This document shows positions 17,804 to 53,289 of a stretch of DNA of 64,000 nt, in pieces; the stretch's first letter is position 1, and each line of letters begins with the position of its first letter. This stretch comes from Gluconobacter japonicus (lineage in GTDB: Bacteria > Pseudomonadota > Alphaproteobacteria > Acetobacterales > Acetobacteraceae). The stretch spans positions 62,001-126,000 of the forward strand of contig NZ_BEWO01000006.1 of the NCBI RefSeq assembly GCF_002723975.1. Direction: 5' to 3'. The notes beneath the pieces were generated by a model. That model worked only from the letters and a program-made list of their open reading frames with translations. It was not told the DNA's origin and made no database searches. Position numbers and translations under genes: made by a program.

Positions 17804-19099
17804 ATGACCCCCATCTCCTTTTCGACCTCGCAGGTTATTTTTGCTCTGGCAACCGGTGCGGGCCGTGCGGCCATTGCCATCATGCGCGCTAGCGGACCAG
17901 GAAGTGCGGAACTTCTCAAGAATCTCTGCGGCTCCCTCCCTGAACCTCGACGCGCCAGCCTTCGCAGCCTTCGTCATCAGGGCGAAGTTCTGGATCATGC
18001 CGTAGTTCTCTGGCTTCCGGGACCGAAATCCTACACCGGCGAAGACGGGTTTGAACTCCACCTTCACGCCGGACCAGCCGTTATTGCCCGCGTTGCGGAT
18101 GCTCTGACTGATCTGGGGGCGAGGCCTGCTGAACCAGGAGAATTCACCAAACGTGCGGTGCAAAAAGGTCGGCTGGATCTTCTTCAAGCCGAAGCCATTG
18201 CCGATCTGGTCGATTCCGAGACGGAAAGCCAGCGCAAGCAGGCACTTCAACAAGCAGATGGGGCTCTCAGTCGGTTATACGATGGCTGGGCGCAGCGACT
18301 ACGCCTTGTTTTAGCGCATCAGGAAGCTCTGATTGACTTCCCGGACGAAGACCTTCCTCCAGAAGTCGAGGAAACTCTTCTGGCTGAAATGTCAGCGCTC
18401 CATCACGAAATGTCCGCTCACTTGCAAGACAATCGCGGCGAACTGATGCGACAGGGGTTAACAGTCGTCATTGCAGGCTCTCCGAATGTTGGAAAATCCA
18501 GCCTTCTCAATGCCTTATCTGGTTATGATGCAGCAATCGTCACGCATCGCGCAGGAACAACACGAGACGCCATTGCCGTTGACTGGATTTTAAATGGTGT
18601 CCGCCTCCGACTGATCGACACAGCGGGACTTCGTGAGACGGAAGATGAGATCGAAGCAGAAGGTATCCGGCGCGCTTTGTTTCACGTGAAACAGGCGGAC
18701 GTCATTCTGCATTTAATTGGGCCAGACGAAACTACGGACGCTCTGTCTGACAATGAAATTGCGGTTCGTACAAAAATCGACATCGCATCTGCCCCGCCGA
18801 ACATGCTAGGCATCAGCACCCAGACAGGTGATGGATTGTCAGCACTTCGGTCCGTACTGACGGAACGGGTCTCAGCACTGACTGCTAGCGCCGGTGCACC
18901 GCCCCTGACCCGGGCACGTCATCGTGCAGGTATTCAGGAAGCCGTCACCCATCTGGAGCGCGCCCGGACTGCCACCTGGCCTGAATTGCGGGGCGAAGAG
19001 CTTCGCCTTTCCATGCAGGCTCTGGGGCGTCTGACGGGACGTGTTGATGTTGAATCCCTGCTCGATGCAATTTTCGGGCAGTTCTGTATCGGGAAGTAG
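17804..19099 (+). CDS. mnmE: tRNA modification GTPase MnmE (TrmE)
   Basis: The 431-residue protein works with MnmG to install carboxymethylaminomethyl groups at wobble uridine 34. It has the N-terminal folate-binding domain ([18 protein letters not shown]), helical domain and inserted G domain. The G domain has P-loop [10 protein letters not shown] near residue 225, HRAGTTRD and DTAGLRE. The C-terminal motif is CIGK. The ATG at 17804 has AAGGAG only one base upstream, unusually close, and the frame extends upstream to 17723 through the adhB terminator, so 17804 remains the best start. A parS site lies inside the gene. Confidence 0.95.
18678..18693 (+). other. parS centromere site 1, inside mnmE
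   Basis: The 16-mer TGTTTCACGTGAAACA is a perfect palindrome and an exact match to the universal parS consensus. It is read in frame by mnmE as part of LFHVKQ. It is the expected ParB loading site, 3.6 kb upstream of parB. Confidence 0.93.
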
Positions 19100-20959: not shown

Positions 20960-21537
20960 CCACCGTTTCACGTGAAACGCAGGACAGACTGGAGCGCTTC
21001 GCTGATCTGCTCGTGCAGTGGAATGCGAAGATTAATCTGGTCAGTCCGAAAGATTTAGGCCAACTCTGGCCCCGCCATATTCAGGACAGCCTGCAACTCG
21101 CAGACCAGATCCCCCAAGGCGCCACCATTACAGATCTCGGCTCTGGTGGCGGCTTTCCGGGTGTCATTCTGGCCATCGCGACGGGTAATCCGGTTACGCT
21201 GATTGAATCCGATCAGAGGAAATGCGCGTTCCTTCGGGAGGCTGGCCGTATCTGCGAAGCCAATGTCACTGTTCTTCCCAAAAGAATTGAAGCGGCCAAT
21301 CCTCCAGAAGCAGATATCATCACAGCTCGCGCACTGGCTCCATTGGTCAAACTGCTCGGCTGGGCGCGGCCTCTGCTGAAAGAAAACGGATTTTGTCTGT
21401 TTCTCAAGGGTATAAAGGCACAGGATGAGTTGACCGAGGCAAGCCGTGACTGGCACATGACATCTACCATTCTTCCCAGCCGCACCGACCCCGGCGGAGC
21501 CATCATCAAGGTCAGTGATTTCAAGCGTGTCGTCTAA
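20956..21537 (+). CDS. rsmG: 16S rRNA (guanine-N7) methyltransferase RsmG (GidB)
   Basis: This 193-residue SAM-dependent enzyme methylates G527 of 16S rRNA. The SAM motif [11 protein letters not shown] is near residue 57, and the N-terminal region has [15 protein letters not shown]. Its ATG overlaps the mnmG stop by four bases. The first codons (VSRET) carry a parS site, so the N-terminus is shaped by a DNA-level constraint. Confidence 0.95.
20964..20979 (+). other. parS centromere site 2, at the start of rsmG
   Basis: CGTTTCACGTGAAACG is a perfect 16-bp palindrome with the invariant GTTTCACGTGAAAC core of parS. It lies nine bases into rsmG, 2.3 kb from the first site. Confidence 0.92.
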
Positions 21538-51107: not shown

Positions 51108-51183
<76 letters not shown>

Positions 51184-51273: not shown

Positions 51274-51885
51274 TTAAGTCAGAATTATTTTCTGGGCTCT
51301 CAGGGCCTGCAAAAGAGGAAGACGCTGCAAACCGAGAACAGCATCGTGATCTCCAACAATTCGGGAAAACAACTGAACGCCAAGCCCTTCAAGCCTATAA
51401 GCCCCAACGCAGCCCAAAAGAGCCTCCCCTTCCTGTTCGAGATAGGTCTCCAGAAAAACCTCCGAGAACTCTCGCATGGTCAGTTCCGGAACAGCCAGGT
51501 TCGCCCAGATTTTTTGCATGCCTCGATAAAGCACTACCGCCGTTTGAAGGCGATGTGTCCGGCCTCTTAAGGCTCTTAGATGATGCTTTGCCTCTTCCAA
51601 TGTCTTTGGTTTGGCAAATGCTATTCCGTCGAGGTCAAGAATCTGGTCTGCCGCGATGATGAAATCTGTCTCCAATCCTGCGTCCGCTGCTTTCAATGCC
51701 TTTGCGTCTGCCAGGATTATTGCCGTCTGACCAAGAGACTTGCCTTCTGCTTCACAGGTCTTTCGCAAATCCTCTTCATTTACGTCCACGGGTCGCAGAT
51801 GGAGTGTCAGACCGCTTTCTTCCAGAAGTACTCGTCGTGCCAAAGATCCGCTCGCGAGAATTAAGGAAGTACTCAGTGTGGTCAT
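51274..51885 (-). CDS. maf: Maf-family nucleoside triphosphate pyrophosphatase
   Basis: This 203-residue protein starts MTTLSTSLILASGSLARRVLLEESG, the typical Maf nucleotide-binding N-terminus. It then shows IIAADQILDLDG (catalytic Asp; most Maf proteins have a T or S rather than I here), KPKTLEEAKHHLRALRGRTH and GCVGAYRLEGLGVQLF. It removes non-canonical or methylated nucleotides from the pool. It diverges from hemE across the candidate origin region, as maf does in several alphaproteobacteria. Confidence 0.9.
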   Translation of the reverse strand: MTTLSTSLILASGSLARRVLLEESGLTLHLRPVDVNEEDLRKTCEAEGKSLGQTAIILADAKALKAADAGLETDFIIAADQILDLDGIAFAKPKTLEEAKHHLRALRGRTHRLQTAVVLYRGMQKIWANLAVPELTMREFSEVFLETYLEQEGEALLGCVGAYRLEGLGVQLFSRIVGDHDAVLGLQRLPLLQALRAQKIILT

Positions 51886-51900
51886 AAGATGCGACTCCAA

Positions 51901-52239
51901 ACTATCGACGGCACGTGTCTGTGCGAGTACTGCGTATGACCCGGTGAAAAGATTGTGTCAGTACTGGGGTACATGGGGACAGTACTCGGAGTCCCCGGAT
52001 GAGGTACCGAGTACCGTGGATTGTTGGGTACACCCTCTGAAACTGGGGGTTGTACACAGGGGGTCTGTGAGTAAAACGGGATAGAATCCTGGGCCCCTTG
52101 CATCGCTGCGGTTTTCGGAGTTGTACACAGTGTGAGTAAGACGGGGTACATTTTTAGAAAGCCGGGTACCCCAGTTTCCACAGGGATCATCCTATCCTCC
52201 AGGATTTCTTTCTTTTTTCTTTCATGGTTAGTGAGCGGC
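51901..52239. other. Candidate chromosomal replication origin between maf and hemE
   Basis: This 340-bp gene-free region is densely repetitive. Two copies of a composite unit are present: TTGTACACA (52050, 52121) followed by TGTGAGTAA (52066, 52131) and then ACGGG. Each 9-mer differs from the DnaA box TTATnCACA, or its complement, at one position. About ten GTAC-centred words, three GANTC sites (51893, 51989, 52084) and a T-rich tract just before hemE add to the picture. In Caulobacter and relatives the origin adjoins hemE. Function is inferred. Confidence 0.5.
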
Positions 52240-53289
52240 ATGAATTCGGAAAACGCACCCCTCTCCCCCTCTTCCAAACCGCTTCTCAGAGCGCTCAAGG
52301 GTGAAGCCGTATGGCCACCGCCAATCTGGCTCATGCGTCAGGCTGGTCGTTACCTTCCGGAATTCCGTGCCATGCGGGATAAGGCTGACTTTCTGACACG
52401 TTGCATGACACCAGACATGGCGGAAGAACTGACGCTTCAACCCATTCGTCGCTATGGCATGGATGGAGCTATCCTGTTTTCAGATATTCTGATTCTGCCC
52501 TGGGCCATGGGGCAGTCGCTCGAATTTATTGAAGGTCGTGGGCCAGTTCTGGGGGCAATTCGATCTGCGGCAGATCTGCAAAGACTGGATCCGAAACGCG
52601 TTCTGGAGGCGACGGCCCCTGTAAGGGAAACCCTTTCTCGTCTGAGCAAGTCCCTCCCTGAGGTCACGACTTTGCTAGGATTTGCCGGAAGTCCTTTCAC
52701 TGTGGCGTGCTACATGGTTGAAGGCGGCGGATCGCGCGATTTTGCAGCGACACGGCAGATGATGCAGACCGAGCCGATGCTTTTTGATCGACTGATTGAA
52801 ACTCTCACAGTCAGTACTGCAGAGATGCTTTGTGGTCAGATCGAAGCAGGCGCAGAAGCTGTCATGCTCTTCGATTCCTGGGCAGGGATTCTGCCGCCGA
52901 CAGCATTCCGACGCTATGTTATTGAACCAACCCGCCAGATTGTGCGTCATATCCGGGAGAAGCATCCAGGGACGCCGATCATCGGTTTCCCGCGTCTGGG
53001 AGGAATCATGGTGCGGGAGTACGCAGAACAGACCGGCGTAAATACGCTAGCTCTGGATACCGTAGCGGACCCGGCCCAGATTGCAGAACTGGTACCCGAG
53101 ATCACCCTTCAGGGTAATCTGGATCCCATGGCTCTTTTCTCGGGCGGAGAAGCCATGATACGCGAAGCAAAGGCTATTCGGGATGCATTGAAAGGCCGAC
53201 CTCATGTGTTCAATCTGGGTCACGGCGTCATGCAGCATACGCCACCTGAGAATGTTGGGGCTCTTGTTGATGCGGTGAGGGCTGTATGA
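52240..53289 (+). CDS. hemE: Uroporphyrinogen decarboxylase
   Basis: This 349-residue enzyme converts uroporphyrinogen III to coproporphyrinogen III in haem synthesis. Signatures are PPIWLMRQAGRYLPEFR, ILFSDILILPWAMGQ and GFAGSPFTVACYMVEG, followed by LFDSWAG and HGVMQHTPPENV. The ATG at 52240 is chosen; a GTG-started extension to 52132 runs through origin-like repeats. Its stop overlaps the next gene by four bases. hemJ in the same operon fits haem supply for the many cytochromes of this lifestyle. Confidence 0.95.
   Translation: MNSENAPLSPSSKPLLRALKGEAVWPPPIWLMRQAGRYLPEFRAMRDKADFLTRCMTPDMAEELTLQPIRRYGMDGAILFSDILILPWAMGQSLEFIEGRGPVLGAIRSAADLQRLDPKRVLEATAPVRETLSRLSKSLPEVTTLLGFAGSPFTVACYMVEGGGSRDFAATRQMMQTEPMLFDRLIETLTVSTAEMLCGQIEAGAEAVMLFDSWAGILPPTAFRRYVIEPTRQIVRHIREKHPGTPIIGFPRLGGIMVREYAEQTGVNTLALDTVADPAQIAELVPEITLQGNLDPMALFSGGEAMIREAKAIRDALKGRPHVFNLGHGVMQHTPPENVGALVDAVRAV

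Follow-up and report, generated by a model that had tools for sequence, protein, structure and literature searches.

The origin of Caulobacter, Cori, adjoins hemE, and origins of the Caulobacter type carry CtrA sites, with TTAA as the half site, and enriched GANTC. In E. coli, oriC is marked by GATC sites, with Dam and SeqA as partners, and GATC gates re-initiation. In the available part of PMC2275245, hemE serves as an indicator gene in Ori-Finder. Clusters of orphan-methyltransferase motifs at putative origins were described by Blow et al. 2016 (PMC4752239) for GATC, for TTAA in Arthrobacter, for CTCGAG in Nocardia and, in Haloarchaea, for CATG in the text (CTAG in the legend); neither GTAC nor Acetobacter occurs in its main text. 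M.RsaI of Rhodobacter blasticus makes m4C in GTAC, according to an excerpt of PMC6256690. No description of a GTAC origin array in Acetobacteraceae was found among the matches listed in the open-licence PMC literature, subscription papers lying outside that scope. Both kinds of system, the hemE-type origin and the origin motif cluster with an orphan enzyme, are known; the locus described here is a GTAC variant of these that we did not find described.

We analysed a 64-kb stretch of Gluconobacter DNA (the window). The spacer between its maf-like gene and hemE is very probably the chromosomal replication origin, a reading to which we assign a probability of about 93%. The features of the window are as follows.

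51274..51900, minus strand: putative maf-like gene, neighbour of the spacer; name taken from the initial annotation
51901-52239: spacer between the maf-like gene and hemE, 339 bp
52240..53289, plus strand: hemE, the other neighbour, with its ATG at 52240; relatives were compared
51956..52222, plus strand: conserved origin element, very probably oriC; model R1 match G000:C6:113956-114222, E 2.4e-53 (window coordinate = C6 minus 62000)
51927..52169, no strand: array of 11 GTAC sites, starting at 51927, 51961, 51969, 51982, 52004, 52011, 52028, 52052, 52123, 52146 and 52166
52050..52058, plus strand: predicted DnaA-box-like TTGTACACA, copy 1, with GTAC inside; present in 30/30 aligned rows, which were chosen by TTGTACACA itself
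52066..52074, minus strand: predicted DnaA-box-like TTACTCACA
52121..52129, plus strand: predicted DnaA-box-like TTGTACACA, copy 2; TTGTACACA or CTGTACAC- in most aligned relatives
52131..52139, minus strand: predicted DnaA-box-like TTACTCACA, opposed to copy 2 of TTGTACACA
52174..52182, plus strand: box GTTTCCACA adjoining the T-rich tract; ATCCACA in many relatives, TTATCCACA in the basal genomes G246, G291 and G067
52201..52230, plus strand: T-rich tract, candidate DNA unwinding element; a similar tract lies at the same place in relatives
18678..18693, plus strand: parS, perfect
20964..20979, plus strand: parS-like site, 2 mismatches

The region had been described as gene-free, and this was confirmed for the 339-bp spacer; the open reading frames listed over it resemble chance frames. 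A tRNA-Ala (GGC) gene lies at 51108-51183, near the maf-like gene at the origin. The two composite units reported earlier, TTGTACACA followed by TGTGAGTAA with a gap of at most 12, were recovered at 52050-52074 and at 52121-52139; the rest of the genome contained no further copy. The DnaA-box consensus is TTWTNCACA, and the claim that the 9-mers of these units lie one mismatch from a DnaA box held against that consensus but not against TTATCCACA, from which they differ at two positions; no site within one mismatch of TTATCCACA was found in the spacer (51901-52239). When up to one mismatch to TTWTNCACA was allowed, the spacer contained six sites, one of them overlapping another, compared with a shuffle mean of 0.46, and none of 500 shuffles reached six. 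The T-rich tract was present as claimed and is the lowest-GC 30-mer of the spacer. From left to right the element reads GAGTACTGGGGTACATGGGGAYNGTAC, about 18 variable bases, GTACCGAGTACCGTGGA, TTGTACACAG and, in Gluconobacter, the TCTGTGNG box; then come a GGGATA word, TTGTACACAGTGTG, GGGGTACRTTTT, GGGTACCCC, a CCACAG box and the T-rich tract.

The abundance of GTAC words noted in the initial annotation was far beyond that of shuffled sequences: the 11 sites in the 339-bp spacer compare with a shuffle mean of 2.18 and a maximum of 8, and 0 of 2000 shuffles reached 11. The other 63.7 kb of the window held 71 sites (1.1 per kb), so that the spacer is about 29 times denser, and the richest 339-bp stretch outside the origin (window, with 51500-52300 left out) held 4. 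The value of 1.1 per kb outside the origin is itself lower than a rough base-composition estimate for the window of about 3.8 per kb. Matches to GTAC triplets numbered 18 in the whole genome, 6 of them in the spacer and the other 12 at scattered single places; GTAC clusters as a genome-wide regulon were rejected, as only scattered triplets occur in this genome beyond the origin. The GANTC sites pointed out earlier do exist, two in number, but without enrichment, since 725 of 2000 shuffles reach that count; GANTC with CcrM was rejected as an origin mark in Gluconobacter on this chance-level count. TTAA was absent from 51901-52239.

In 69 of the 81 loci compared (80 from HemE relatives plus the window), the region upstream of hemE contained an element of some 268 bp whose words come in nearly fixed order, when called by TTGTACACA within 420 bp plus alignment; the conservation of the 9-mers in sister genera, proposed as a check, was thereby borne out. 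Of the 12 loci from which it was absent there, eleven belong to the Bombella/Saccharibacter group, and the twelfth, the MAG locus L034, was judged on the region upstream of hemE alone. No test that we ran speaks against the origin reading. In G132, contig C1 (2799488 bp) begins inside the origin spacer: the element occupies 54-316, and hemE, at 2798421-2799467, lies at the opposite end.

GC skew in the 64-kb window was negative in all 26 of the 2-kb windows from 1 to 52000 and positive in all six beyond, placing a local skew minimum at the spacer as had been anticipated. The nearly complete chromosome G014, from the same genus group, was sampled in 19 stretches and in 20 kb across hemE: 10/10 stretches below hemE were negative and 9/9 above it positive. 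At fine scale the switch fell at 968-970 kb, coinciding with hemE and the element, with one later 2-kb window at -0.011. Skew also flipped upstream of hemE in G156 and, weakly, in G028. The two parS sites said to lie 29-33 kb away were found at 31-33 kb; one is perfect and the other has two mismatches.

The spacer lies directly upstream of both hemE and the maf-like gene and is conserved, as would be expected if it were a regulatory region of either gene and no origin. The loci lacking the element upstream of hemE provided the strongest test of the origin reading. A GTAC pattern search located the element in two Bombella-group genomes, at a distance from hemE of 21 kb in G116 and 25 kb in G060, and model R1 placed a moved element about 20 kb from hemE in G128, also of the Bombella/Saccharibacter group (C12:42152-42414). 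In G116 the element is at C1:55889-56135 and hemE at 77 kb; skew was -0.055 in 52-56 kb and +0.095 in 56-60 kb, and was unchanged at hemE. The picture in G060 (element at C28:887148-887405) was similar, with the switch at the element and not at hemE. Since the element moved and the skew switch moved along with it, the element is separable from hemE and tied to the replication switch point. A hemE promoter region was rejected on this ground, and we give the regulatory explanation almost no credence. Placement of the origin beside dnaA deserves equally little: the available passages of PMC3751514 (using Ori-Finder) and PMC13209655 each put oriC near dnaA in an Acetobacter strain, but in G014 (2.16 Mb), with dnaA at 1.1 kb, skew was -0.171 at 20 kb, and at 2.0 Mb it was +0.128. 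Skew around dnaA therefore runs from positive to negative, which sets dnaA on the terminus side, and an origin at dnaA was rejected on the G014 skew. Further, dnaA and hemE were separated by 28-49% of the contig in the nine genomes with both genes on one chromosome-sized contig (G014, G021, G055, G058, G063, G092, G102, G132 and G170, strains other than those of the two papers). This separation agrees with the statement, in the portion of PMC8116508 at hand, that a position of dnaA near ori is not conserved in Rhodospirillales.

We therefore assign the origin to the maf-hemE spacer because of the local skew reversal, the conservation with near-fixed word order and the moved element that still marks the skew switch; the oriC proposed in the initial annotation is thereby supported. 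The features by which an oriC is recognised, a DnaA-box cluster, an AT-rich tract and a skew reversal, were all found at the spacer. The family is used in industry, and the assignment gives its origin a position other than the one beside dnaA to which two genome papers assign oriC.

An orphan methyltransferase is encoded outside the window, at G000:C7:109778-110464. When 28 Acetobacteraceae genomes were searched with PF01555, a CcrM-like protein was the top match in 28/28 (five sequences read), and 20/28 also had a member of a second conserved family, about 275 aa long and with a TSPPYN motif. The CcrM-like protein of our genome scored 633 bits against the CcrM model, whose cut-off of 830 it does not reach, and the second methyltransferase 72 bits, showing that the second enzyme belongs to another family than CcrM. 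A profile match at E 1e-60 was obtained for it in 154 of 299 Acetobacteraceae genomes, leaving 145 non-carriers. In a sample of the class, 237 of 240 genomes were without it (20 of the 237 were named, all of other families) and the three carriers were all Acetobacteraceae. The gene stood beside tim44 in 20/20, secB in 18/20 and mltA in 17/20 of the loci examined, and in our genome it overlaps mltA by 4 bases. No restriction gene was present among its four neighbours at this one locus (secB, tim44, mltA and a cytochrome peroxidase). In the basal carrier G192 the methyltransferase gene is about 8 kb from the hemE/origin region (C1:700070-700876 and 708683-709720). The best plasmid homologue, on Paracoccus alcaliphilus plasmid p305818 (L382:4878-5756, 51% identity), adjoins an IS4 transposase and small unknown genes, and no restriction gene was recognised among its three scanned neighbours; it was tried as a known GTAC restriction-modification relative and dropped, its neighbours being uninformative.

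To follow the element among the 299 genomes, the pattern GTACCGAGTACYNNGGA, found in 94 of them and one letter off in many Acetobacter-type elements, was replaced by model R1. Of the 30 training elements, 27 have 8-12 GTAC in the part that was aligned, two from MAGs have 6-7, and L127 has 11 in its region; built almost wholly from GTAC-rich elements, R1 therefore tests for GTAC-rich elements only. It matched 173/299 genomes at E 1e-3, 137 of them strongly at E <=1e-27, a cut-off placed at a gap in the match list. All 137 genomes with a strong element carried the second methyltransferase, and none of the 145 non-carriers had a strong match. Seventeen of the 154 carriers, in 11 other genera, were without a strong element, and the eight of these that were counted had 1-6 GTAC. 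Per 320 bp, 43 carriers from 25 genera had per-genus means of 1-14 GTAC; 18 non-carriers from 13 genera had 0-2, except G282 with 4, although seven of the 18 had been picked as weak R1 matches, which favours GTAC. The regions counted are putative origins, and the g24 genomes G227, G229, G082 and G078, which have no origin-like sequence upstream of hemE, were left out. The low-GTAC carriers G165, G184, G192 and G288, the four placed on a HemE tree, branch outside the GTAC-rich clade. Both components of a Dam-like system, a dense short palindrome at the origin and a conserved orphan methyltransferase, were thus found in the same genomes, a link absent from the initial annotation.

On the HemE tree of 36 genomes, the GTAC-rich clade includes G028 and G156, which branch beside G063 (support 97/94) and are perhaps sisters (85/79); both have long branches, and G156 is of odd composition. 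Neither carried the methyltransferase in the profile search. The 320 bp upstream of hemE contained 0 GTAC in G028 (L245), where 14 exact TTATCCACA occurred on both strands, compared with almost none in clade relatives, and 1 GTAC in G156, where the skew switch was clear. A recognisable mltA was missing in G028, G156 and the non-carrier G291; in the first two, the methyltransferase gene may therefore have gone with its operon. Low GTAC in G028 and G156 is consistent with an array that decayed once the enzyme had been lost, in one or two events. A pair test of enzyme against array on the tree gave two independent pairs, one concordant and one without difference, a number at which no significance is attainable. 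At the origin position of the basal genomes G246, G256 and G259, 9, 12 and 11 GANTC were counted per 320 bp and no GTAC, and in the MAG loci L065 and L072 GAGTC replaced AGTAC at two aligned positions. These replacements are suggestive of one methylation word having been exchanged for another; other basal genomes hold few GANTC or GTAC, and such an exchange would therefore not be general.

We tentatively propose, at slightly less than an even chance, that the orphan methyltransferase acts on the origin GTAC array in the manner of Dam on GATC. To judge from the anatomy of the element, DnaA would bind TTGTACACA, the opposed TTACNCACA boxes and the box adjoining the T-rich tract, and would open that tract. 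The conserved methyltransferase would target the GTAC array, and replication would leave the sites half-methylated; since two of the GTACs fall within DnaA boxes, the mark could control re-initiation, the part played by GATC in E. coli oriC. Put more broadly and held just as tentatively, acetic acid bacteria may have a second, non-CcrM origin code, in which the enzyme encoded in the secB-tim44-mltA slot puts a mark, possibly m4C, on GTAC and methylation gates initiation. The origin, earlier GANTC-rich or of canonical TTATCCACA form, would have become a GTAC array whose DnaA boxes themselves contain GTAC. If true, the class, in which CcrM counts as the cell-cycle methyltransferase, would have a second system of origin methylation, and the natural losses would make cause and effect testable.

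The element might also be the origin while its GTAC words are parts of protein binding sites, either DnaA subsites or those of an origin regulator, without methylation; we consider this quite possible, though doubtful. Nine of the 11 sites (all but 51927 and 52028) fall in alignment columns where 23-27 of the 27 rows read GTAC, mostly as parts of longer conserved words (GGGGTACATGGGG, TTGTACACA and GGGTACCCC among them), leaving room for binding sites longer than GTAC. Mean information was 1.92 bits within GTAC, 1.57 in the two flanking bases on each side and 1.12 over all columns, and spacing is nearly fixed among elements, as binding sites would predict. However, column 29 held GTAC in 27/27 rows with both neighbouring bases variable (in column 51 the left neighbour alone varied), strong elements are accompanied by the methyltransferase in 137/137 genomes, and GAGTC in place of AGTAC in the two MAG loci resembles an exchange of methylation words. 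A DnaA with altered sequence preference, as the initial annotation worded it, would explain why near-canonical TTATCCACA is missing from the spacer and box-like 9-mers are nonetheless far beyond chance. Among 16 DnaA proteins compared (12 from methyltransferase carriers and four from non-carriers), three domain IV changes near the recognition helix were each seen in 11/12 carriers and 0/4 non-carriers: N to A before VARPR, R to K in GR[RK]FG and Y to W in EH[YW]N. These differences between the groups would allow a modest change of DnaA preference. The RDHTTV recognition core was identical in 16/16, however, and 9/11 GTACs fall outside the two TTGTACACA boxes, so a changed DnaA behind the odd boxes is unlikely and not favoured here.

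Compared with described systems, the locus resembles hemE-linked alphaproteobacterial origins in its position beside hemE, its box cluster, its AT-rich tract and a parS at tens of kb. It differs from the Caulobacter-type origin in a spacer without TTAA, with GANTC at chance level and without a canonical DnaA box, the GTAC array standing in their place; adjacency to hemE holds in the window, whereas the element has moved in the Bombella group and G128. A CcrM-like protein is present here as well, and the second methyltransferase, at 72 bits, is of another family. As in E. coli oriC, a palindromic 4-mer recurs about a dozen times within some 250 bp, in part inside boxes, with a companion orphan methyltransferase; unlike in Dam/GATC, the word is GTAC and the candidate enzyme has a TSPPY motif (PF01555). 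The correlation of an origin motif cluster with a conserved orphan methyltransferase is shared with the cases of PMC4752239, from which the present one differs in that GTAC is a predicted motif of the enzyme. An alphaproteobacterial precedent for a GTAC methyltransferase is M.RsaI (PMC6256690), and the best plasmid homologue of the orphan enzyme, from Paracoccus, is likewise alphaproteobacterial.
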